A stretch of 32,379 nucleotides of DNA. Source: Clostridia bacterium. GTDB lineage: Bacteria > Bacillota > Clostridia > Oscillospirales > CAG-272. The translations under genes and the position numbers were made by a program. The stretch is from NCBI GenBank assembly GCA_017397175.1, contig JAFQKA010000037.1, positions 1 through 32,379 on the forward strand. The letters are read 5' to 3'. The notes beneath the pieces were generated by a model. The model saw only the letters and a program-made list of their open reading frames with translations, had not been told where the DNA came from and made no database searches. Shown here one piece after another: positions 20,222-31,816 of this stretch (positions are counted from its first letter, which is position 1; each line of letters starts with the position of its first letter).

Positions 20222-21100
20222 ATGTGGTGTGCAGATAAATGGAAAGACTACGAGCTTCTCGATACCTCAAACGGAGAACGACTTGAAAAATGGGGGAAGT
20301 ACACTCTCATTCGTCCCGATCCTCAGATAATCTGGCGCGGCGACGAAAAGCACCCCCTGTGGAAAAAGGCAGACGGTATCTACCGCCGTTCATCTAAAGG
20401 CGGTGGCGGCTGGGTGAAGAACAACACCCCCGAAAGCTGGACCATCAGCTACGGCGACCTCCGCTTCCTGATCAAGCCCATGGGCTTTAAGCACACGGGA
20501 CTTTTTCCCGAGCAGGCGGCAAACTGGGATTGGTTCTCGGATCTGATAAAGAGAGCCAACAGACCTGTAAAGGTGCTGAATCTTTTTGCCTACACCGGCG
20601 GTGCCACGGTAGCCGCGGCAAAGGCGGGCGCGTCTGTCTGCCACGTTGACGCCTCAAAAGGAATGGTGGCGCAGGCAAAGGAAAATGCAAAGCTTTCGGG
20701 GCTTGAGGCCGCACCTATCCGCTATATCGTCGACGACTGTAAGAAGTTTATTGAACGAGAGATCCGCCGCGGAAACACCTACGACGGTATCATCATGGAC
20801 CCGCCGTCCTACGGCAGAGGTCCAAACGGCGAGGTCTGGAAGATAGAGGACAGCATAGACGAGTTTGTGACTTTGGCATCAAGAGTTCTTTCGGATAAGC
20901 CCCTGTTCTTCCTTATAAACTCCTATACAACGGGACTTTCGCCTTTGACTATGAGCTATATACTCAACCTCAGAGTTAAGGAAAAGTTCGGTGGTAAGAC
21001 CGAGGCGGGCGAGCTTGGATTGCCCGTAACAAGCACGAAGAATCCGCTGCCCTGCGGCGCAAGCGCCAGATGGCAGAGCGAGGCGGCAAGAGAAAACTGA
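20222..21100 (+). CDS. Class I SAM-dependent methyltransferase, probable 23S rRNA methylase (COG1092-like)
   Basis: A 292-residue Rossmann-fold methyltransferase. The N-terminal part (to about 90) ends in FKHTGLFPEQAANWDWF, typical of the RlmI/RlmK-like group. SAM-binding motif I is LNLFAYTGGATVAAAKAG (near 120-137), the acidic residue after strand 2 is in HVDASKG, and motif IV is MDPPSYGRG. Related proteins modify 23S rRNA. It lacks an N-terminal PUA domain and so is shorter than RlmI (about 390). The target base is not predictable here. The gene lies between ruvC and the ECF genes in one probable transcript. Confidence 0.85.
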   Translation: MWCADKWKDYELLDTSNGERLEKWGKYTLIRPDPQIIWRGDEKHPLWKKADGIYRRSSKGGGGWVKNNTPESWTISYGDLRFLIKPMGFKHTGLFPEQAANWDWFSDLIKRANRPVKVLNLFAYTGGATVAAAKAGASVCHVDASKGMVAQAKENAKLSGLEAAPIRYIVDDCKKFIEREIRRGNTYDGIIMDPPSYGRGPNGEVWKIEDSIDEFVTLASRVLSDKPLFFLINSYTTGLSPLTMSYILNLRVKEKFGGKTEAGELGLPVTSTKNPLPCGASARWQSEAAREN

Positions 21101-21120
21101 AAACGGAAAAAGATCAAAGA

Positions 21121-21990
21121 ATGGAAAACGAAGTATTTATAAAAGCCGAAAACCTTTCGTATGCATACGAGGAGGACGACGGCACACCCCAAAAGGCGGT
21201 TTTGCGCGGGGTCTCCCTTGAGATCAAAAAAGGCGAATACGTAGCGATCCTGGGCCATAACGGCTCGGGGAAATCTACCTTTGCAAAGCTGCTCAATATG
21301 ATCCTTGTGCCCGACAGCGGAAGGCTTTGGGTAGCAGGACACGAGCTGACCTCAGAGACCTTTGACGAAAAGGAACTGCTTGAGGTCCGCCGCAAGATCG
21401 GAATGGTCTTCCAGAACCCCGACAACCAGCTGGTGGCGACGGTGGTTGAGGAGGACGTGGCGTTCGGCCCCGAAAATATCGGCGTACCCTCAAAGGAAAT
21501 ACGTGAGAGGGTAGATAAAGCCCTTGAAACGGTAGGCATGACCGAGTATGCACGGCACAGCCCCGACCGCCTCTCGGGCGGACAGAAGCAGAGAGTTGCC
21601 ATTGCGGGTATCATCGCCATGATGCCCGAGTGCATGGTGCTGGACGAGGCTACGGCTATGCTCGATCCCGTGGGACGGCGCGAGGTCATGGACACGGTCG
21701 ACCGCCTGAGAGCCGAGAAGGGAATAACCGTTCTAAACATCACCCACCACATGAATGAAGCGGTGAGAGCGGACAGAGTTATCGTTATAAACGACGGTAA
21801 AATATATATGGACGGCACTCCCGATCAGGTGTTTGCGAGAGCAAAAGAGCTTGAAGCGGTGGGTCTTGAGGTTCCTCAGTGCACCGCTCTTATTGACGCG
21901 TTGCGTGAAAAGGGCGTGAGGATTGAGGGCAAGTCGACTACCCCCGAGGCTTGTGCCGACCTGCTTACCCGTTTTTTGAAAAAATCTTGA
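21121..21990 (+). CDS. ecfA1: Energy-coupling factor transporter ATPase EcfA1
   Basis: A 289-residue ATPase, one of the two of an ECF importer that powers interchangeable S-components for vitamins or metals. I use ATG 21121 (MENEVFIKAENLSY), 20 bases after the preceding stop. Walker A GHNGSGKST is at 45-53, the Q-loop is FQNPDNQ, the signature is LSGGQKQR and Walker B is MVLDEATAMLD; DEATAMLD is the form usual for EcfA1. The ribosome site is weak. The gene order ecfA1-ecfA2-ecfT-truA matches the Firmicute arrangement. Confidence 0.95.
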   Translation: MENEVFIKAENLSYAYEEDDGTPQKAVLRGVSLEIKKGEYVAILGHNGSGKSTFAKLLNMILVPDSGRLWVAGHELTSETFDEKELLEVRRKIGMVFQNPDNQLVATVVEEDVAFGPENIGVPSKEIRERVDKALETVGMTEYARHSPDRLSGGQKQRVAIAGIIAMMPECMVLDEATAMLDPVGRREVMDTVDRLRAEKGITVLNITHHMNEAVRADRVIVINDGKIYMDGTPDQVFARAKELEAVGLEVPQCTALIDALREKGVRIEGKSTTPEACADLLTRFLKKS

Positions 21991-22001
21991 AGGATCAAAC
22001 T

Positions 22002-22847
22002 ATGTCAGAAATAAAACTTGAAAACGTGTCCTACGTGTACAGCGAGGATACGCCATACGAAAAAAGAGCGCTGACCGACGTTACCGCCACTATAAAAAGC
22101 GGTGCCATAACGGGAATCATCGGCCACACGGGTTCGGGAAAATCCACCCTTGTTCAGATGCTCAACGGCCTGACCCGTCCAATGTCGGGCAGAGTTCTGC
22201 TTGACGGAAAGGACATCTGGGAGGACCCCAAAAAGATAAGTGACGTGCGCTTCCGAGTGGGACTTGTCATGCAGTATCCCGAATATCAGCTTTTCGACGA
22301 GACGATACGCGCCGATATCGCCTTTGGTCCCAAGAATATGGGACTTGATAAGGAAGAGATCGAGCGCCGCGTGCTTGAAGCGGCGGATTTTGCTGGAGTT
22401 GACCGCGAATGGCTTGATAAATCTCCCTTTGATCTGTCGGGCGGACAGAAAAGACGTGCGGCAATAGCGGGAATCATCGCCATGCGCCCCGAGATTCTCG
22501 TGCTTGACGAGCCTGCGGCAGGACTTGACCCTGCGGGCAGAAAAAATATTATGGAAGGTCTTTGCGCTTACCGCGACAAAACGGGGTCTTCCGTAGTCAT
22601 AGTCAGCCACAGCATGGAGGACATGGCGCAGTATTGCGACGACATAATCGTCATCAGCGACGGTCGCGTTATCGCTCAGGGAAAGAAGGAAGAAGTCTTC
22701 TCTCAGAGCGACCTGCTTCGCTCGGTGGGACTTGATATTCCCCAGATAACTCTTGTTATGCGGCTGCTTGCCGACAACGGGATCAACGTCAACACGGGAG
22801 TTTACACGGTGGAGGACGCCGTAAATGAAATTTACAAACTGATTTAA
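22002..22847 (+). CDS. ecfA2: Energy-coupling factor transporter ATPase EcfA2
   Basis: A 281-residue partner of EcfA1. ATG 22002 (MSEIKLENVSYVY) follows GAAGGA that overlaps the ecfA1 stop, so translation is probably coupled. Walker A GHTGSGKST is at 41-49, the Q-loop is MQYPEYQLF, the signature is LSGGQKRR and Walker B is LVLDEPAAGLDP, the EcfA2 form. Both ATPases look catalytically complete and are expected to form a heterodimer on EcfT. Confidence 0.95.
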   Translation: MSEIKLENVSYVYSEDTPYEKRALTDVTATIKSGAITGIIGHTGSGKSTLVQMLNGLTRPMSGRVLLDGKDIWEDPKKISDVRFRVGLVMQYPEYQLFDETIRADIAFGPKNMGLDKEEIERRVLEAADFAGVDREWLDKSPFDLSGGQKRRAAIAGIIAMRPEILVLDEPAAGLDPAGRKNIMEGLCAYRDKTGSSVVIVSHSMEDMAQYCDDIIVISDGRVIAQGKKEEVFSQSDLLRSVGLDIPQITLVMRLLADNGINVNTGVYTVEDAVNEIYKLI

Positions 22848-22855
22848 GGAAAACT

Positions 22856-23674
22856 ATGAAAAACATCGCATTGGGACAGTATTATCCTACCGGCTCGGTG
22901 ATCCACCGTGCCGATCCGAGAATGAAATTGATCTTGGCTGTCCTTTTCATCGTTTGCACTTTCCTGTGCAAAAATATTTACAGCTTCGGGGCGATACTCT
23001 TGGCGTCTGTCTTGCTGGTTTTAGTCAGCCGTATTCCGCTGAAAACCGTCCTGCGCTCGATTCGCGCGCTGCTGTTCATCATGATCTTTACCCTCGTCAT
23101 AAATGTTTTTATGACCAAGGGCGAGGTGCTTCTCTTTGAGTGGAAGTTTATCCATATCTACCGCGAGGGTATCGTCAACGCTTGCTTTATGCTGGTGAGG
23201 ATCTTCGCGCTGATCATCGGCACCAGCATTCTGTTGACCTATACAACCACGCCCATCGCACTGACCGACGCTATCGAGAGCTTGCTGTCTCCGTTGAAGA
23301 AGATAAAGCTCCCGATCCACGAGTTTGCCATGATGATGACTATCGCGCTCCGCTTTATCCCCACTCTCATGGAGGAGACCGAGAAGATAATGGCGGCGCA
23401 GAAGGCAAGAGGCGCGGATTTTACGAACGGAAGTCTTATAAAGCGCGCAAAAGCGCTGATACCTATTCTTATACCCCTTTTCGTGTCGGCATTCAGACGC
23501 GCCGACGAGCTTTCGGTGGCTATGGAATGCCGTTGCTACCACGGCGGAGAGGGACGAACTTCAATGAGAGTTTTAAAATACAGAGCAAGCGATTTTCTGC
23601 TTTTTCTTGCCTTTGCGGCACTGTGCGCGGGACTGATCGCTCTGAATCTGCTCAAAACGCCCTTTGCATTGTAA
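22856..23674 (+). CDS. ecfT: Energy-coupling factor transmembrane protein EcfT
   Basis: A 272-residue membrane scaffold that connects the two ATPases to an S-component. It begins with the family hallmark GQYYPTGSVIHRADPRMKL and has five to six hydrophobic segments. The two coupling-helix motifs are QKARGADF (near 182-188) and AMECRCYHGGEGRT (near 221-234). The second has Cys instead of the more usual Gly after Arg, a form that I believe is common in clostridial EcfT. No S-component gene is adjacent, indicating a shared (group II) module. It starts 8 bases after ecfA2 with AAGGA upstream. Confidence 0.94.
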   Translation: MKNIALGQYYPTGSVIHRADPRMKLILAVLFIVCTFLCKNIYSFGAILLASVLLVLVSRIPLKTVLRSIRALLFIMIFTLVINVFMTKGEVLLFEWKFIHIYREGIVNACFMLVRIFALIIGTSILLTYTTTPIALTDAIESLLSPLKKIKLPIHEFAMMMTIALRFIPTLMEETEKIMAAQKARGADFTNGSLIKRAKALIPILIPLFVSAFRRADELSVAMECRCYHGGEGRTSMRVLKYRASDFLLFLAFAALCAGLIALNLLKTPFAL

Positions 23675-23678
23675 GACC

Positions 23679-24428
23679 ATGAAGATATTGCTTAAAATTC
23701 GGTTCGTCGGCACAAATTATGCCGGCTACCAGGTACAAAATAACGCGCCCACCGTTCAGGGTGAGCTTTGCCGCGCGGCAGAGCAGCTTTTCGGGGGTCG
23801 GTGCGACGTGACGGGCTGCAGCCGGACCGACAGCGGAGTTCACGCAAATATGTTTTGCGCCGCCGTTACAAATCATGGTTCAAACATCCTTGAAACCACC
23901 GTTCCCACGGAAAAGATCCCTCGCGCCATGAACGCTTTTCTTCCACCCGACATCGCGGTGATTTCCGCCTCCGAGGTGGAGGACGGTTTTCACCCGCGCT
24001 ATGATGTGAAGTCGAAGGAATACGTTTATCTCATTCAAAACGGCGGCGAGCGGGACCCTTTTATGGCAGACAGATGCTTGTTTTATCCCAGAAGCCTTGA
24101 CACGGATAAAATGAACGAAGCGGCGAAAAAATTTGTGGGTGAGCATGATTTTGCCGCATATATGGCGGCAGGGTCAAAGGTGGAATCCACCGTCCGCACG
24201 ATCTATCGTGCATCGGTGACGCGCGATGGCGGTATGATCCGCTTTTCGGTTCGCGGAAACGGATTCCTTTACAACATGGTGCGGATAATGACGGGAACGC
24301 TCATAGCCGTGGGAGGGGGCAGAATATCTCCCGACCAGATACCGTCGATCACTCAAAGCCTTGACAGAAAAAGGGCAGGAAGTACGGCACCCGCGTGCGG
24401 GCTTTACTTAAACGATGTAGAATATTGA
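23679..24428 (+). CDS. truA: tRNA pseudouridine(38-40) synthase TruA
   Basis: A 249-residue enzyme that makes pseudouridine at positions 38-40 of the tRNA anticodon arm. The catalytic Asp is D51 in CSRTDSGVHA. The N-terminal FVGTNYAGYQVQ, the central FHPRYDVKSKEYVY and the C-terminal GNGFLYNMVRIMTG are all diagnostic. ATG 23679 lies 4 bases after the ecfT stop and has no strong ribosome site, so it probably relies on coupling. In Bacilli truA is followed by rplM-rpsI; here DUF5711 follows instead. Confidence 0.96.
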   Translation: MKILLKIRFVGTNYAGYQVQNNAPTVQGELCRAAEQLFGGRCDVTGCSRTDSGVHANMFCAAVTNHGSNILETTVPTEKIPRAMNAFLPPDIAVISASEVEDGFHPRYDVKSKEYVYLIQNGGERDPFMADRCLFYPRSLDTDKMNEAAKKFVGEHDFAAYMAAGSKVESTVRTIYRASVTRDGGMIRFSVRGNGFLYNMVRIMTGTLIAVGGGRISPDQIPSITQSLDRKRAGSTAPACGLYLNDVEY

Positions 24429-24449
24429 AAAAACGAGGAGGTGAGACAC

Positions 24450-25694
24450 GTGGCAGAAAAGAATACGAAAAAGCGCAATATGGGGCTGACAGATAAAAAT
24501 GACGTTCGCATGGAAGATGATGCCTTTGAGAGCGCCGCGCCGAAAAATAAATACTATCTGTCGGTGTCCCGCCGCTATAATTTCGCAAAATACGTGGTGC
24601 TTATAGCCTTCATGTGCTTTCTTCTCATATCCCTTATGGCAAACCGCGAGAATATTACCTACGAAAACTTTCTTCTGCTCATAAAGGACGTAAACTTGGC
24701 GGCGAGAACCGCAAATAAGTCCTACGAGACCATCAATTACAGCGAGGATTCGGAGCAGACAGTCACAAAATATAAAAACAACCTGGTGGTAACGGGAAGC
24801 TCGGGTGTAAAGATCTTCAGCGGCACGGGTGACCAGGTCTATTCGGGTAAGGAAAAATTTTCAAAGCCGCGAGCCGTCTCATCTGACAAGTATCTGTTGG
24901 TCTACGATTTTAGCGGTACGAAATTTTCTCTTTACAACACTTTCACCTCGGTTTTCAGCGACAGCTTTGAATACGGTATAACCGATGGCGCCATTTCCGA
25001 CAGCGGAACCTTTGCCCTCGTCAGCCGTACCAAGGAATATAATTATGCGGTGATGGTCTATTCGAAGAATTGCAATCTTATTAACCGCTACCGAGGCAAC
25101 GAGTACGTGATCGACGTTGCCATATCCGATGACGGAAAGCGCATAGCCATTGTAATGGTCGAGGCCGAGGGCGGATATTATAACACCACTCTCATGCTCT
25201 GCGAGCCTGGTTCGGAGGAGGTCATTCAGACCCTTACTCTCAGTCACGTTTTCCCTGTAAAATGTGCTTTTTCCGACGATTCAAACCTGGCGCTTGTGTG
25301 CGACAAGGAAGTATATTTATATGATAAAAACGGCAGCTTGAGAGGTAATTTCCCCATTTCCGGGGAGCTTGACCGAGTTTCCTGCCAAGGGGATCACGTT
25401 GCACTTGCTATGGCAGACAACGCCGTTCAGTCGGATAACACGGTTATAGTTCTTGACTATAAGGGCAACGTAAAATACGAGGGTGATATTCAGGCAAGAA
25501 TATCCGATATTGAGCTTCACGGGGGCAGTCTTTTCGTACTTACCGATACGGATGTACGAAGAATATCTCTGTCCGACGGAAAAGAACGCTCAGAGCAGGT
25601 ACAGGGATACTCGAAGGATCTTGTGGTATTCAGCCGTGACGACGTTATGCTCTGCACGAAAAGCAAGGCCGAGCATATTGACCTGAGAAACTAA
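24450..25694 (+). CDS. DUF5711 family protein: one membrane anchor plus beta-propeller-like domain
   Basis: A 414-residue protein of unknown function. I choose GTG 24450, since AGGAGGTGAG lies at the correct distance; the earlier in-frame GTG at 24441 is part of that ribosome site. A basic and acidic cytoplasmic tail of about 45 residues is followed by one helix (YVVLIAFMCFLLISLMA, near 47-63). The rest carries repeated short strands such as AISDSGTFALV, AISDDGKRIAIV and AFSDDSNLALV, spaced like blades of a WD40/PQQ-type propeller, presumably outside the cell. It is followed 10 bases later by cvpA. Confidence 0.85.
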   Translation: MAEKNTKKRNMGLTDKNDVRMEDDAFESAAPKNKYYLSVSRRYNFAKYVVLIAFMCFLLISLMANRENITYENFLLLIKDVNLAARTANKSYETINYSEDSEQTVTKYKNNLVVTGSSGVKIFSGTGDQVYSGKEKFSKPRAVSSDKYLLVYDFSGTKFSLYNTFTSVFSDSFEYGITDGAISDSGTFALVSRTKEYNYAVMVYSKNCNLINRYRGNEYVIDVAISDDGKRIAIVMVEAEGGYYNTTLMLCEPGSEEVIQTLTLSHVFPVKCAFSDDSNLALVCDKEVYLYDKNGSLRGNFPISGELDRVSCQGDHVALAMADNAVQSDNTVIVLDYKGNVKYEGDIQARISDIELHGGSLFVLTDTDVRRISLSDGKERSEQVQGYSKDLVVFSRDDVMLCTKSKAEHIDLRN

Positions 25695-25704
25695 AGGAGG
25701 ATAT

Positions 25705-26418
25705 ATGTTTTTAGCGCTTGATATAATCGTTGTAGTTATTTTCGGGGCAACGCTGATACACTGTATAAGAAAAGGCTTTGTGGTGTCGGTTTTGAACCTG
25801 CTAAAATCAATTTTGGCGGTAGTGGCGGCATATATTTTCTCGCCTGCGCTGGCTGATTTTTTCAAGACTTCCTTTCTTGACCGTGCTATTACGGCACCCG
25901 TAAAAAACAGACTTGAGGTCATGCTGGAGGAGACAGCCGGAAAATTTGACATTGAGAAGCTTTTTGAGGATAAGCCAAAGGAATTTCTCGATATTCTTGA
26001 CCGCTTCGGTGCGAAGATCGATGAATTTGCGCACAGCTACGGTGCAACCTCTCAAGCAAGCGAGGAATACGTTGCAAGCTTTGCGCAGGATATAACGTCA
26101 TCTGTAGTGGACACGGTGTCATACGTGCTTGCGTTTGTGGCAATTTTTATAGTGGCACTGATCGTTTTTACTATCGTTATTGCTATCGTTTCCGCGGTCG
26201 TAAAGCTGCCCATTATCAGAGGTGTCGACAAATTGCTCGGAACTGTGTTCGGACTTGCCTCGGGACTCGTTCTTGCCATAGTTCTTTCGGAACTTGCCGT
26301 GTGGGGCTTTGAGGCGCTGTCCTCCGTTGACCCCGAAACGTTCGGCGGTGTTGTTGAAAAGACGGTGGTAGTAAAATTTCTTGGCAGCCTTGAATACGGA
26401 CAGATCAAAATAAAATAA
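25705..26418 (+). CDS. CvpA family membrane protein
   Basis: A 237-residue protein of the CvpA (colicin V production) family. The family core is visible: an N-terminal helix, the RKGFVVSVLNLLKSILAVVAAYIF segment split by the conserved basic-glycine turn, and two later helices (near 140-165 and 188-205). Between them lies an extracellular, helix-rich region (about 50-135) longer than in the E. coli protein, as is common in Clostridia. The function is unclear; family members affect envelope integrity. AAAGGAGG precedes the ATG. Confidence 0.85.
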   Translation: MFLALDIIVVVIFGATLIHCIRKGFVVSVLNLLKSILAVVAAYIFSPALADFFKTSFLDRAITAPVKNRLEVMLEETAGKFDIEKLFEDKPKEFLDILDRFGAKIDEFAHSYGATSQASEEYVASFAQDITSSVVDTVSYVLAFVAIFIVALIVFTIVIAIVSAVVKLPIIRGVDKLLGTVFGLASGLVLAIVLSELAVWGFEALSSVDPETFGGVVEKTVVVKFLGSLEYGQIKIK

Positions 26419-26438: not shown

Positions 26439-26484
26439 ATCTTACTTGACAGGTGCCGGGGACGGCAGAATGGAGAAATCAAAA

Positions 26485-28746
26485 ATGGTGAAATGTTCCA
26501 GATGCAAAAAAAGACTTGCGGTCATTTTTGCAAATGTAAATCATAACGGTGAGAATAAGAGCCAGGGATTTTGCATCAAGTGTGCAAAAGAGGTGGGAAT
26601 ACCCGTTGAAGGTATTCTCGGTGACTCTCTCGGAAAGCTGGGGATCGACCCCGAGCAGATGGAAGAAATGGAAGAGAGCATGAGCGAGCTGGTGGAAGGG
26701 AATATCGAGGGCGGTGCGCCCGCTATCGACTTTGCCAAGCTGATGGGAAACATGGGTGTTGGCGAGCCTCAGAAGGAGACTAAAAATTCCAAGGAAAAAA
26801 ATCAGCAGCCAAAGAAGAAAAAGTACCTTGATACCTATTGCCGCAATCTTACTCTGAGGGCGCAGAGAGGTCAGCTTGACAGGATCGTTGGACGTGAGCG
26901 TGAGCTTTCGAGAGTGATACAGATACTTTGCCGCCGTCAGAAGAATAACCCTTGCCTTATCGGTGAGCCGGGTGTCGGAAAGACAGCTATCGCTGAGGCA
27001 CTGGCGCAGAAGATAGCCTCCGACGACGTACCCTATAAGCTGAAAAACCATCAGGTCTACCTTGTGGATCTGACCGCGATCGTTGCGGGAACCCAGTTCA
27101 GAGGACAGTTTGAGCAGAGAATGCAGGGGCTTCTCAGCGAGGTAAGAGAAGCGGGCAACGTGATACTCGTTATCGACGAGGTCCACAACATTGTGGGCGC
27201 AGGTGAAGGCGAGGGAAGCATGAACGCTGCGAATATCCTGAAGCCCGCACTTTCCCGAGGCGAGATACAGGTTATCGGTGCAACGACCCTGCGTGAATAC
27301 AGAAAATATATTGAAAAGGATACGGCGCTTGAACGCCGCTTCCAGCCCGTCACCGTAAATGAGCCGTCGCTTGAAGAGAGCGTTGAGATGCTCCGCGGTA
27401 TCAAGCACTATTACGAGGAATTTCACAAGATAATCATTCCCGACAGCGTGCTCAATCGCGCGGTTATGATGTCCGAGAGATATATTACCGACAGATATTT
27501 GCCCGACAAGGCCATCGACCTGCTTGACGAAGCGGCGGCGAACCTGTCGCTGAGCTCCGCAGAGCTGAACGAATCCTTTGAAATAAAGGAAAAGCTCCTT
27601 AAAATAAAGGAAGAACGGGAAGCCTGCGAGGCGGAAGAAATAACCGATCCATCTCAGGAGTCGAAAAAGTTTGAAAAGCTGGCGAATTTCCGCGCGGATG
27701 AATTGAGGCTATCAAATCGTCTTGAAGAGATCCTTCCCGCCTGTGAAAAGATCGAAATGACACCCCCCGATCTTGCAAAGGTGGTTGAGATATGGACGGG
27801 TATTCCCGCTTCAAATATCACCGAAAATGAATTTGAAAAGATAGACAGACTTGAGGAGCGCATTTCAAAGCGCATAATCGGTCAGGATAAGGCGGTCAGC
27901 GCCGTGGCACGTGCAATCAAGCGAAACCGCGCGGGAATTTCCTATAAAAAGAAGCCTGTTTCCTTTATTTTTGCAGGGCCTACGGGCGTGGGCAAGACTG
28001 AGCTTGTAAAGACCCTTGCCGCAGACCTGTTCAATTCCCCCGAAACGCTGATCCGTCTCGACATGTCCGAGTTTATGGAGAAGCATTCGGTGTCCAGAAT
28101 TATCGGAGCGCCTCCCGGCTACGTGGGATACGACGAGGCGGGACAGCTGACTGAAAAGATCCGCCGCAAGCCATATTCTGTAATACTTTTCGACGAGATC
28201 GAAAAAGCGCACCCCGACGTGCTAAATATTCTCTTGCAGATACTTGACGACGGCAGAATTACCGACGCTCACGGAAAGACCGTGAACTTTGAGAACACCG
28301 TTATCGTCATGACCACAAACGCAGGCTCGGAGAACAATACGTCTTTGGCAGGCTTTGCCCAAAGCGGAGAAGCGCTGGCAGAGGCTAAGACCGAAAAGGC
28401 GCTGTCTGCATTCCTGCGCCCCGAGTTCATCAACCGTGTGGACGAAATAATCACCTTCCGCCGTCTTGACGAACAGGATTTTGCCAAGATCGCCGCAATT
28501 ATGCTGGACGAGCTTGCTTCGGTGCTGGCGGAAAAGGAGATAACTCTCACCTATTCCGACGATGCTTTGAAGCTCATTGCCGAAAAATCCTTCTCGGCAA
28601 AGTTCGGCGCGAGAAATATGCGCCGCTTTATCCAGACCGAGGTTGAGGATAAGCTGGCCGAGATAATTATTGCCGATTATAACCGTGCGTTCAGGAGCGC
28701 GGAAATATCCGCTGAGAATGGCGAGATAAAGGTTACTTGTAAATAA
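26485..28746 (+). CDS. ClpE-like AAA+ unfoldase with N-terminal zinc finger
   Basis: A 753-residue Hsp100 protein with two AAA+ modules. ATG 26485 is chosen since GGAG lies nine bases upstream; in-frame starts at 26446 (TTG) and 26470 lack a site. A four-Cys finger (C4, C7, C30, C33) opens the protein, as in ClpE, instead of the double Clp-N domain of ClpC. Walker A1 GEPGVGKT is at 160-167, Walker B1 LVIDEVHN near 227-234, a short charged M-domain follows near 385-430, Walker A2 GPTGVGKT is at 498-505, and Walker B2 is ILFDEIEKAHPD. The expected ClpP-docking tripeptide is AGF (622-624) rather than [LIV]GF. No mcsA, mcsB or ctsR is nearby. It precedes the P-type ATPase homologue by 20 bases. 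Confidence 0.9.
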   Translation: MVKCSRCKKRLAVIFANVNHNGENKSQGFCIKCAKEVGIPVEGILGDSLGKLGIDPEQMEEMEESMSELVEGNIEGGAPAIDFAKLMGNMGVGEPQKETKNSKEKNQQPKKKKYLDTYCRNLTLRAQRGQLDRIVGRERELSRVIQILCRRQKNNPCLIGEPGVGKTAIAEALAQKIASDDVPYKLKNHQVYLVDLTAIVAGTQFRGQFEQRMQGLLSEVREAGNVILVIDEVHNIVGAGEGEGSMNAANILKPALSRGEIQVIGATTLREYRKYIEKDTALERRFQPVTVNEPSLEESVEMLRGIKHYYEEFHKIIIPDSVLNRAVMMSERYITDRYLPDKAIDLLDEAAANLSLSSAELNESFEIKEKLLKIKEEREACEAEEITDPSQESKKFEKLANFRADELRLSNRLEEILPACEKIEMTPPDLAKVVEIWTGIPASNITENEFEKIDRLEERISKRIIGQDKAVSAVARAIKRNRAGISYKKKPVSFIFAGPTGVGKTELVKTLAADLFNSPETLIRLDMSEFMEKHSVSRIIGAPPGYVGYDEAGQLTEKIRRKPYSVILFDEIEKAHPDVLNILLQILDDGRITDAHGKTVNFENTVIVMTTNAGSENNTSLAGFAQSGEALAEAKTEKALSAFLRPEFINRVDEIITFRRLDEQDFAKIAAIMLDELASVLAEKEITLTYSDDALKLIAEKSFSAKFGARNMRRFIQTEVEDKLAEIIIADYNRAFRSAEISAENGEIKVTCK

Positions 28747-28766: not shown

Positions 28767-31457
28767 ATGGAAGACTTGAAATGGTATGCCATGACGGCAC
28801 AGGAAGCCGCATCTGAACTGAAAAGTGATCTGTCCTCGGGGCTCTCCCGAAAAGAAGCGGGAAGAAGATGCCGCCGACTTGGTGAAAACAGAATATACAA
28901 GACGGGTGACGACAATCCTTTCCGTCCCATTGTAAAAATGGCGTCCGACGTTTCCCTTATCATCATGCTTGTGCTTTCGATCGTCGGCGCGTTCTTTGCG
29001 GACACAAAAATGTCGGTGCTTTGCATTTTCCTTACCCTGTGGGCATTTGCCTTCTCCTCGATCACTTACCTTTATACCAAACGGTATTTCGAGAGCGCGG
29101 CATCCTCCTCGCTTCCCACCGTGCGCGTGCGCCGCGACGGAAAGGTCTATTCCGTAAGCATAAAGCACGTGGTTGAGGGTGACGTGATAATATTGCGCCG
29201 AGGGGACATAGTCCCCTGCGACTGCCGGCTTATCAGTTCTGAGAACCTTAAAGCTCTTGAATTTACGGGCAGAATAGACGGTCGGGAGAAAAACGAGATA
29301 ACGCAGAAAAATGCGGACCGTGTTTTTCTGGCAGGTGAAAATCCGACGGTAGCCCAGCAGGAAAACATGATAGGCGCATCTGCCGCCATCGTTTCGGGTC
29401 ACGGAATCGCCATTGCCGTCAGATGCGGAAGCGATACCTTTATTTCGCAAATGAAGGGAGAGCTTGAACTTGCTCCCGACTCAAAAAAAGACCTTGCAAC
29501 GATCAAGCAGTTTTCTTCCTTTACATCAAAGGTTGCCCTGATAATGCTTATCTGCGCTCTGCCCGTGACTCTCCTGGTCTTCTTTGTGGGTAAGGACAGC
29601 TTCGGGCTTCTCGATACTCTCATGACCCTTGCCGCCATTGTCGTTACAAGCTCAAGCGAGGCGCTGACGGCAGTCATGTACATAATTCCCATGGTTGCCA
29701 TGATGCGGGCAAAAAATGCCGAAAACAGTGCACAGATAAAATTCCTGCACGCGTTGGGTGAACTGAATTATAACGATTCGGTTATCTTTTACGGTGACGA
29801 GGCTCTCGTGAATCGGGAAATGTCTGCCGAGCGTATATATGCCTCTAATCTTTTCTTCCCTGCGGACAAGCCAAGCGAGGATGCAGGTTTTGTAACCCTT
29901 GTTGAAAACGCTGTTCTGGGTACATTGGGTAATCTGACTACGGCCGAGCAGGACAAATCTCTTGGCGGCTCTGTTGCAAAGGCGGTTCTTGACCTGGCGC
30001 AAACTGTCGGAGTGGATCCCGATATGCTGAAAAAAGAAACTCCCGTGGTAGAATTCAAATCCGCCGCCGAATCCCAGTTTGATACGACTCTTCTGAAGAA
30101 CGGTGAGCACCATACGGTCATCTGTACCTCTATGTCTTCGGATATTCTCAGGATCTGCACTCACATGAGAACTCCTTCGGGAATACTTCCCATGACAAGT
30201 GATAAAAAGAACGACCTGATACGAGCGCATACGCAGCTCCAAAGACAGGCAAAGAACGTGCTTTTCGTGGCATCGTCCGACTGCCCCGCATCAAGCCTTG
30301 CCAGACTTGCTTTGGTTCAGAATCAGCTCATTTTTGACGGATACATAGAATTTGCCGAGCCATACGTTGAAAATTGCCGTGAGCTTGTTGAAGAGCTGCG
30401 CGAGGCGGATCAGAACGTGTATTTCTTCGGCCCCGAAAGCGGAAATTCCGTTATAAACGCCTTTAATTGCGGAATCGTTCAGCGAAAGAACGAAATTGCT
30501 TATGCATCCCATTTCAGAAAGAACGGTCACGGTGTTGACCACGGCTTTGGCGAATATAGGGCGTATCTTGGATTTGGAGGCGCGGAGCTTCGTGCGCTGA
30601 CTCAGCTTATCCGAGGAGATAACGGAACGGTCAGCATGATCTGCTCCGACGTGGGAGGTCTTTCTGCTTCGGCTAAGGCAAACGCTCTTATCTGTGTTTC
30701 GGGCGAGACGGAAAACCGTCGGACGCCTATAGACCAGCCTGCCTATTACTCCCAGATAATAAAGAAAAATTCTGACGTAATAATTCCTCCGGCAGACCGG
30801 GGAGGGCAGGGAATCAAGTCCTTTATGACTCTTTTTGCCTGTGCCAAGACCGCCTGTGCCGGACTTTGCGGATTTTTGAAATATTTGTTGTTCTCACAGA
30901 GCCTCAGACTTTCGGCAGCGGTGATCCCTCTTATTATAGGAAAGAAACTGCTTCTGCCCGTTCAGATACTTTTACTTGGATTTGTGCTTGATTTCCTTGC
31001 CGCTGTCTGTTTTGCCCTCTCGGGCAGCGAAAACGGCATAAAAACAAGACTTTGCGACATTGAAACCGTGTTCTCAAAGCCCTTGAGATCCTATTTCAAG
31101 TACCCCGTGGCAGGAATTATTCTGGGCGGTATTCTGATACTCTTGTCGGCGGTATTCGGTATTTCCGGTTCGACTGCAGACACCAATCTGTCAGTCCTTG
31201 CGTTCGGTGCTGTTGCCGCTTGCCAGATCTCCGCTGTCGTAATGATCGCAAGACCCCAAAAGGGAGATAAGCTATGCCGCGCCCTGATCGGAGCGTCGGT
31301 TATCCTTACCGTTGCCGTCTTTGCGCTCGGTGTGGCACTGCCTGCATTCGGTTCGATCCTCGGTATCTTTTCCCCCGGCTGGCAGGTTATAGCCGCAACA
31401 CCCATCGCGGCTGTGATCGGTGCGGTTATAATAAATGTAACCGATAGATATCTTTAA
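28767..31457 (+). CDS. Full-length P-type ATPase homologue lacking all catalytic motifs (pseudo-ATPase)
   Basis: An 896-residue protein with the layout of a P2-type cation pump: an N-terminal cation-ATPase-N helix (GLSRKEAGRRCRRLGENRIY), about ten membrane segments, an actuator domain between helices 2 and 3 (VRRDGKVYSV...VVEGDVIILRRGDIVPCDCRL) and a large domain of about 380 residues between helices 4 and 5. The catalytic motifs are replaced. TGE is TGR (167-169), PEGL in helix 4 is SEAL (297-300), and DKTGTLT is replaced by IFYGDEALVNREM (340-352). KGA is missing near 452-455, TGD is FGP (554-556) and GDGxND is CSDVGG (626-631). It cannot form the aspartyl phosphate by the known mechanism. 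The frame is intact, GAAAGGAG precedes the ATG, and codon use matches its neighbours, so it is not a decaying pseudogene. A regulatory or scaffold role is possible. Confidence 0.88.
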   Translation: MEDLKWYAMTAQEAASELKSDLSSGLSRKEAGRRCRRLGENRIYKTGDDNPFRPIVKMASDVSLIIMLVLSIVGAFFADTKMSVLCIFLTLWAFAFSSITYLYTKRYFESAASSSLPTVRVRRDGKVYSVSIKHVVEGDVIILRRGDIVPCDCRLISSENLKALEFTGRIDGREKNEITQKNADRVFLAGENPTVAQQENMIGASAAIVSGHGIAIAVRCGSDTFISQMKGELELAPDSKKDLATIKQFSSFTSKVALIMLICALPVTLLVFFVGKDSFGLLDTLMTLAAIVVTSSSEALTAVMYIIPMVAMMRAKNAENSAQIKFLHALGELNYNDSVIFYGDEALVNREMSAERIYASNLFFPADKPSEDAGFVTLVENAVLGTLGNLTTAEQDKSLGGSVAKAVLDLAQTVGVDPDMLKKETPVVEFKSAAESQFDTTLLKNGEHHTVICTSMSSDILRICTHMRTPSGILPMTSDKKNDLIRAHTQLQRQAKNVLFVASSDCPASSLARLALVQNQLIFDGYIEFAEPYVENCRELVEELREADQNVYFFGPESGNSVINAFNCGIVQRKNEIAYASHFRKNGHGVDHGFGEYRAYLGFGGAELRALTQLIRGDNGTVSMICSDVGGLSASAKANALICVSGETENRRTPIDQPAYYSQIIKKNSDVIIPPADRGGQGIKSFMTLFACAKTACAGLCGFLKYLLFSQSLRLSAAVIPLIIGKKLLLPVQILLLGFVLDFLAAVCFALSGSENGIKTRLCDIETVFSKPLRSYFKYPVAGIILGGILILLSAVFGISGSTADTNLSVLAFGAVAACQISAVVMIARPQKGDKLCRALIGASVILTVAVFALGVALPAFGSILGIFSPGWQVIAATPIAAVIGAVIINVTDRYL

Positions 31458-31525: not shown

Positions 31526-31816
31526 ATGCGACTTACAGACACTGAAAAGCTAAGCGAAAAATACGTTCTCAATCTTTGCGACGGAAGCGATCTCGGCTAT
31601 GTAACAGACGTTCAGTTCTGCACCGAAACGGGGCAGATAACTGCCTTTATCGTCACTCTTGACACGGGGTTATTCTCTTTCGGAAAATGTGACCGCGCAG
31701 TGATCCCCTGGGAGAAGATCGAGTGCATAGGAGAGGACGCGATTTTGGTCAAGCTCACGCCAAACGAGCTTCGTCGGGAGGAAAAGAGCAAAAAAGGGAA
31801 GAAATTCTGGAGATAA
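31526..31816 (+). CDS. YlmC/YmxH-family PRC-barrel protein
   Basis: A 96-residue protein of the YlmC/YmxH family, a single PRC-barrel associated with spore-forming Firmicutes. The barrel pattern is clear: MRLTDTEKLSEKYVLNLCDGSDLGYVTDV (read in two parts, with the conserved L..K.V.N...G..LG), then ITAFIV, the turn FSFGK and IPWEKIECIGEDAILV. The tail is basic (RREEKSKKGKKFWR). GGGAGG precedes the ATG. The molecular function is unknown. Its presence suggests, but does not prove, a sporulating ancestry. Confidence 0.88.
   Translation: MRLTDTEKLSEKYVLNLCDGSDLGYVTDVQFCTETGQITAFIVTLDTGLFSFGKCDRAVIPWEKIECIGEDAILVKLTPNELRREEKSKKGKKFWR

Follow-up and report, generated by a model that had tools for sequence, protein, structure and literature searches.

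P-type ATPases are the textbook pump superfamily defined by one phosphorylated aspartate, and in some uncultured gut Clostridia one such pump appears, from its sequence, to have been turned into a protein that does not pump. The gene in question is found in a 32,379-nucleotide stretch of DNA (contig JAFQKA010000037.1 of the Clostridia bacterium assembly GCA_017397175.1; hereafter the window), where it directly follows a gene for a ClpE-like AAA+ unfoldase. Our comparative analysis shows a family of full-length, P2A-derived proteins without a phosphorylation cycle, which group as a single clade, are held under purifying selection and, in one order of gut Clostridia, have their gene immediately behind an intact ClpE-like gene. 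The existence of this family is well supported. As to function, we infer, at a probability of about 0.4, a P2A-derived, non-pumping membrane scaffold or receptor that would work with the ClpE-like unfoldase. In what follows, “pseudo” designates proteins or loci without DKTGT, f1 is the bacterial family to which the window belongs, and f17 and f20 are two other families of its order.

A pump body without its catalytic motifs

The gene and the site of its lost phosphorylation motif are as follows.

28767..31457, + strand: pseudo-P-type ATPase gene that closes the operon, with 896 codons from an ATG
29778..29810, + strand: site of the lost phosphorylation motif, where residues 338-348 (SVIFYGDEALV) replace SVIC(S/T)DKTGTL in the alignment

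This was confirmed to be an intact, full-length P-type-ATPase-like gene without catalytic motifs. Its 896 codons are uninterrupted and its ATG is preceded by AAGGAG, in agreement with the initial annotation, which had described from the letters alone an unbroken frame with a good ribosome site. Pfam placed Cation_ATPase_N at residues 6-73, E1-E2_ATPase at 117-317 and Cation_ATPase_C at 728-887; these models (PF00690, PF00122, and PF00689, for the N-terminus, the A domain, and the C-terminal membrane domain) exceed their cut-offs and establish homology to the P-type ATPase superfamily. The hydrolase/P-domain and N-domain models were absent from the Pfam results up to an E value of 1, and NCBIfam matched 12 models to the protein with no P-type ATPase model above its cut-off. 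The best solved relative was lmo0841 (9euq), at an E value of 9.1e-24 with the single window protein and 1e-121 with a family profile; judged by these scores, the likeness to P-type ATPases is beyond chance.

Set against 68 catalytic P2 pumps in an alignment, the protein encoded in the window has a single one of the 19 catalytic positions left (the TGE Gly) and is without TGES, DKTGT, KGA, TGD, and GDGxND. YGDEA occupies the DKTGT site, Arg173 stands at the Glu of TGES, and the nucleotide-site residues F487 and K515 are both gone, while the 24 columns around DKTGT are free of gaps across 65 f1 pseudo and 63 P2A sequences. The initial reading of this gene, that the pump architecture is kept and the flanking residues still align where every catalytic motif has been lost, was thus borne out.

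Equivalent losses were found in other members. The 101 pseudo proteins compared, which were chosen by the absence of DKTGT, keep D351 in 8 cases, T353 in 1, E183 in 9, F487 in 6, K515 in 12, G626 in 1, and D703 in 5, and none of the 101 has D351 and D703 together; in the catalytic controls, D351, T353, E183, F487, G626, and D703 are each present in 67 to 68 of 68 proteins. The positions often retained by the same 101 proteins are G516 (89), G182 (81), T181 (54), K352 (48), D627 (43), and D707 (42). At six f17 loci (L269 and L271-L275), DNSRYF, DDSRYF, or DSSKYF replaces DKTGTL, with the Asp at the D351 column kept and the M4 Pro mostly kept. Since f17 combines these two residues, its proteins may preserve an earlier stage of the loss.

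One clade under purifying selection

Sequences with fewer than 700 matched residues and exact duplicates were first removed, leaving 139 proteins, and with FastTree 71 pseudo proteins formed one clade. An IQ-TREE analysis of 66 proteins (43 pseudo and 23 catalytic, randomly subsampled, with three near-identical f20 rows dropped and with the catalytic and ion-site motif columns removed) recovered the pseudo clade with an ultrafast bootstrap (UFB) support of 100, a value that long branches could have inflated. Within the clade, f17 and f20 grouped together (UFB 97), and f1 received a UFB of only 68.

Ratios of nonsynonymous to synonymous substitution rates (dN/dS) lay between 0.03 and 0.21 in 38 of 48 close pairs, those with usable dS, the remaining 10 being saturated, and between 0.03 and 0.14 in the 5 pairs with dS below 1; the genus of the window is represented by one pair only (L005/L006, dS 2.2). 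When the ratio was calculated by domain for 8 pairs, all values but a single unusable one fell below 0.2. Values near 1, which would have spoken for a gene in decay, did not occur. Consistent motif loss, purifying selection, and a single clade together mark a conserved non-catalytic family at the sequence level, and these findings, with the recurrence of the gene described below, support the proposal made in the initial annotation of a conserved membrane pseudoenzyme that may found an undescribed family.

Distribution within the order

All four other genomes of the window's genus carry a full-length copy without DKTGT, at 39-41% identity, and identity to the proteins of other genera falls to 22-25%. 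A 30-sequence profile at E<=1e-115 picks out 112 of the 246 f1 genomes, in 44 of the 71 genera, with the motifs read in part of these matches only; every fetched protein scoring above 419 bits, the score of the top catalytic protein, is without DKTGT, and the two kinds overlap at lower scores. Of the 134 f1 genomes that this profile had not matched, 46 were searched again with a second profile, made from divergent members. This gained 22 of the 46, all without DKTGT (17, followed by G006, G020, G051, G114, and G132), which brings f1 to at least 134 of 246 genomes. The pseudo-pump is also present in 20 of 21 f17 and 19 of 21 f20 genomes (best 30 loci plus 9 more among these 42 genomes, all without DKTGT), G507 having only a 463-residue frame near a contig end; it was not found in G420, G303, and G331 of these families. 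Recurrence in three families disposes of the concern that the locus might be unique to one assembly. Beyond the order, the best 19 loci in 245 genomes of the class, besides the window's own and with 12 further matches set aside, were all catalytic, although a very divergent member could escape such a search. An initial contig scan with the single window protein as query gave no matches.

The named records that carry the gene are metagenome-assembled genomes, many from ruminant, rabbit, or horse gut and mostly titled Clostridia or Oscillospiraceae. One record (L055, JAGHTD010000169.1) is titled “Candidatus Colimorpha enterica,” a name placed in Bacteroidales by the NCBI taxonomy; its contig bears the same operon as the Clostridia, and the bin or the name may be mislabelled. 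The f17 and f20 genomes also contain weaker P-ATPase matches (G390:C1, G481:C29, G494:C26, G412:C34, G455:C160, G356:C20, and others) with 1-3 in-frame stops within the match.

A constant place behind a ClpE-like gene

In the window, the pseudo-pump gene ends a same-strand run with gaps of less than 30 bases, and 20 bp separate its start from the end of the ClpE-like gene.

21070..21990, + strand: EcfA ATPase subunit, first
21951..22847, + strand: EcfA ATPase subunit, second
22856..23674, + strand: EcfT/CbiQ membrane subunit of an ECF transporter
23664..24428, + strand: TruA tRNA pseudouridine synthase
24441..25694, + strand: DUF5711 protein (PF18975)
25705..26418, + strand: CvpA (Colicin_V, PF02674) family membrane protein
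26446..28746, + strand: ClpE-like AAA+ unfoldase with N-terminal CxxC...CxxC, both Walker A/B pairs, and an xGF loop
31476..31506, + strand: possible operon end, a hairpin CCCCTCATAC-GCTT-GTGTGAGGGG followed by CATTTTG, noted by eye and not listed by a terminator scan

We call the unfoldase ClpE-like on the basis of its N-terminal CxxC pairs and two intact AAA+ rings, ClpE having a zinc finger; no ClpE model was matched. The initial annotation was right to single out the pseudo-pump itself but overlooked this operon, which is the strongest clue to function.

Loci were required to have at least 400 nt of upstream flank, which took out 3 of the 97 pseudo and 2 of the 92 catalytic P-ATPase loci. 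In those left, a Clp gene is the immediate upstream neighbor at 92 of 94 pseudo loci and at none of the 90 catalytic ones. The two misses are L081, where a separate reading does show Clp directly upstream, and L270, where none was found; a further locus, L047, gave no target gene in the gene-neighborhood reading. Later loci, some of which repeat earlier genes, gave 15 of 17 versus 0 of 13 (misses L285 and L289), and the last set gave 16 of 16 versus 0 of 4. Because the pseudo label is defined by the absence of DKTGT, position in the operon is the fair test for orthologues that might retain the motif, and by that test none appeared in the 90, 13, and 4 catalytic loci. The same counts led us to reject independent losses from catalytic genes at this locus, since no DKTGT pump follows Clp in any of them.

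Of the Clp proteins read from pseudo-bearing loci, all 38 (38/38) retain the two Walker A/B pairs, the two CxxC pairs, and the xGF-loop GF; the CxxC pairs and GF are also present in 21 operons without a pseudo-pump. In the genome of the window, which is approximately 72% complete, a further Clp homologue is seen at 54% identity, together with a single match to the ClpP family. Between CvpA and Clp, several other loci have a PgsA-like gene (PF01066 in the one scanned). DUF5711 occurs in 138 of 147 sampled genomes of the order versus 1 of 14 control genomes, and its relatives have one predicted transmembrane segment near the N-terminus; in the passages retrieved from the open PubMed Central (PMC) literature, it is named once, in an Acinetobacter genome study. 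Downstream of the pseudo-pump, at 31526-31816, the window encodes a YlmC/YmxH-family sporulation protein.

Ion-site columns of the membrane core

Three codons of the window gene mark the former cation site.

29658..29660, + strand: Glu298, M4 ion-site Glu, kept in 59/65 f1 proteins
30906..30908, + strand: Arg714, at the M5 ion-site Glu (SERCA E771), Arg/Lys in 65/65 f1 proteins
30990..30992, + strand: Asp742, M6 ion-site Asp (SERCA D800), Asp/Glu in 65/65 f1 proteins

As had been noticed from the letters, the helix 4 Glu of SEAL (residues 297-300) and the helix 6 Asp of GFVLDF are kept: E298 and D742 fall in the M4 Glu and M6 Asp columns. The SERCA Ca2+-site residues E309, N768, E771, N796, and D800 read E, Q, R, G, and D in the window protein, a set that departs from the P2A one. 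In f1, 61 of 65 proteins have Gly for M6 Asn796, and 61 of 65 are without the M4 Pro. Both the M5 base and the M6 acid are absent from all 36 f17 and f20 proteins (36/36), and the M4 acid is retained in 11 of 12 and 23 of 24 of them, respectively. The M5 base and M6 acid thus seem to behave as a pair, across clades and not through many independent events, and in f1 the pair would neutralize the old cation site.

Constraint on the cytoplasmic domains and length variants

In pairs of 45-60% identity, the stretch around DKTGT is less conserved in pseudo-pumps than in catalytic pumps (0.64 versus 0.78), whereas the N-terminus (0.47 versus 0.34), the A domain (0.60 versus 0.52), and the N domain (0.47 versus 0.37) are more conserved. 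Since these three regions exceed the pumps in closer pairs, the shifted constraint hints at a new function at the cytoplasmic face, although it is suggestive only.

The whole N domain has been deleted in two species of genus g57 (L198/L294 and L295, in G060 and G112), leaving proteins of 684-689 residues; the 689-residue frame is intact, with a dN/dS of 0.15. Because g57 lost this domain yet keeps the gene, nucleotide binding is probably dispensable in the family. Longer variants also occur. A very divergent pseudo-pump of approximately 1120-1160 residues with several low-complexity inserts lies directly after Clp in G010 (L199/L280), and six f1 members (L024, L034, L037, L040, L041, and L056) have frames of 1221-1338 amino acids with a C-terminal extension of approximately 300 residues, rich in charged residues. 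In L024, L034, and L037, the extension ends with a common stretch like DREFLGIGYLFSEEEYEAIMAEYNEDGT; the window protein is without it.

What a pump body might do beside an unfoldase

We propose that the protein would be unable to pump and that its body would act as a membrane-embedded scaffold or receptor. At the cytoplasmic membrane it would work alongside the ClpE-like unfoldase, perhaps as a dock for the ClpE hexamer or by presenting damaged membrane proteins to it. A contact surface could be formed by the N-terminal and A regions, whose conservation is raised among closer relatives. In f1, an internal ion pair might hold the ten-helix core without bound cations, M5 Arg/Lys contributing the base and M6 Asp/Glu the acid, and the M4 Glu would lie nearby.

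Several observations weigh against this proposal. A shared place in the operon can simply be inherited, and is thus not direct evidence of contact between the proteins. At 19 loci from 18 other families, and at 2 from f1, Clp is the last gene of the operon and no P-ATPase was seen, though some of the fetched stretches end soon after Clp; ClpE would need no pseudo-pump there, and the pseudo-pump accordingly looks like an addition behind Clp. The raised conservation of the cytoplasmic domains is confined to closer relatives, with no gain over pumps at 25-35% identity in the A domain (0.39 versus 0.40) or the N domain (0.25 versus 0.25). Erosion is also uneven: half of the f17 proteins (6/12) account for most of the Asp residues at the D351 column (8/101), and 9 of 12 f17 proteins have the M4 Pro, so these residues may have some residual function there. 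Finally, the M5/M6 ion pair is a placement by alignment, and the charge pair is a clade difference of one or two events that is absent in f17 and f20.

A bolder version of the scaffold proposal, which we regard as doubtful, would make a calcium-type pump into a membrane-embedded controller of an AAA+ unfoldase. The core, with the M5 Arg/M6 Asp pair in place of cations in f1, would sense a signal from the membrane, be it pH, ions, lipids, or misfolded membrane proteins, and would switch or recruit ClpE through the former A and N domains, without using ATP of its own.

It is also conceivable, though we think it unlikely, that the protein is a sensor, a receptor and not a scaffold, whose pump body still changes conformation in response to a proton, ion, lipid, or nucleotide ligand and signals to ClpE or another operon product. 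The persistence in f1 of an M4 acid, an M5 base, and an M6 acid despite lost catalysis fits such a role, as does the M4 acid in 11/12 f17 and 23/24 f20 proteins, and the M5 Arg and M6 Asp may respond to protons; Arg655 and Asp684 of AHA2 are described as such a pair in a review (PMC10654040). However, the M5/M6 pair is missing from f17 and f20, which share the operon position, and g57 has discarded the N domain.

Improbable, in our judgment, is the passive ion or lipid pathway raised in the initial annotation, by which a pump without its motor would let substrate pass. The full-length membrane domain and the M4 Glu and M6 Asp kept in f1 are compatible with it, and TMEM94, in which ATPase activity was not found, holds a lipid in its membrane domain (PMC12134183). 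The kept Glu and Asp noted in that annotation stand, but they are accompanied by a new M5 Arg, which argues against passage of cations: in f1 the site looks neutralized (M5 Arg/Lys in 65/65, Asn796 to Gly in 61/65, and M4 Pro lost in 61/65). This counter-argument is weaker for f17, where the M4 Pro is kept in 9/12.

Very improbable is a pseudo/active pairing, in which the protein would serve as a regulatory subunit for a catalytic P-type pump of its own cell. The suggested search for an active P2 ATPase in the same genome did yield two DKTGT pumps (L002 and L003), and at L188 a catalytic P2A pump gene is convergent with the pseudo-pump gene, but no catalytic pump occupies the operon place (0/90 after Clp) and L188 is the only locus at which such a neighbor was seen. 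There is likewise only a slender chance that the pseudo-pump is a subunit or stabilizer for the ECF transporter, CvpA, or DUF5711 and not for ClpE; most loci with sufficient flank have these genes in the operon, but Clp is the direct neighbor in 92/94 and the genes between CvpA and Clp vary. A decaying pseudogene or one-assembly artefact, which eroded catalytic motifs and fast divergence (22-25% identity between the window and other genera) might suggest, was rejected as having virtually no chance in the face of open frames in more than 100 genomes, dN/dS of 0.03-0.21, and a constant operon place.

A bacterial family whose cycle is gone while its body remains under strong selection beside an unfoldase gene would show what uses this scaffold has without pumping. 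It also offers a concrete handle on an operon that includes DUF5711, a gene widespread in the order. Should the controller version hold, the proteins would add a new class to the AAA+ adaptors and, by the literature searched, would form the first described bacterial P-type pseudo-ATPase family. We found no bacterial P-type pseudo-ATPase family among the matches listed for the open PMC literature, outside which most subscription papers and preprints fall, and as far as searched it is within that literature that the family can be called undescribed.

Comparison with known systems

The neighbor resembles ClpE/ClpC-type unfoldases in its N-terminal CxxC pairs and two intact AAA+ rings. We know of no adaptor of these unfoldases with a P-type ATPase fold, and none was among the matches listed in a search of the literature on ClpE, P-type ATPases, and CvpA.

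Plasma-membrane H+-ATPases of the P3A type are active pumps that offer a parallel, in residue and helix if perhaps not in alignment column, to the M5 Arg with M6 Asp of f1. The same review states that, in AHA2, M5 Arg655 acts with M6 Asp684 (PMC10654040). We considered bacterial P3A H+-ATPases as kin but make no claim of kinship to H+-ATPases: a single homologue was found in 149 genomes, and its M5 column is without Arg.

The P2A Ca2+-ATPases (Listeria lmo0841/LMCA1, SERCA, and SPCA) provide the best solved matches and share the order of the A, P, N, and membrane regions and, with f1, the M4 Glu and M6 Asp columns. The pseudo-pumps differ from them in having lost the phosphorylation, dephosphorylation, ATP-binding, and hinge motifs and in their location in a clp operon, and those of f1 also in the change of M5 Glu to Arg/Lys and the loss of the M4 Pro in 61/65.

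By sequence, then, the family is P2A-like; by behavior, we would place the human protein TMEM94 (ERMA) nearest to it among described proteins. A cryo-EM study found TMEM94 to have P-ATPase architecture without TGES and with ATPase activity undetected, and takes up D417, as a proposed site, together with an M4 proline motif that breaks the helix (PMC12134183). Its P-type-ATPase-like A, P, and N domains, ten helices, and absence of TGES recall the pseudo-pump, whereas it is a eukaryotic protein of the endoplasmic reticulum. Its activity is disputed, Mg2+ pumping being claimed in another report (PMC13322241), and to this question of non-pumping P-ATPase relatives the pseudo-pumps of gut Clostridia would add bacterial material.

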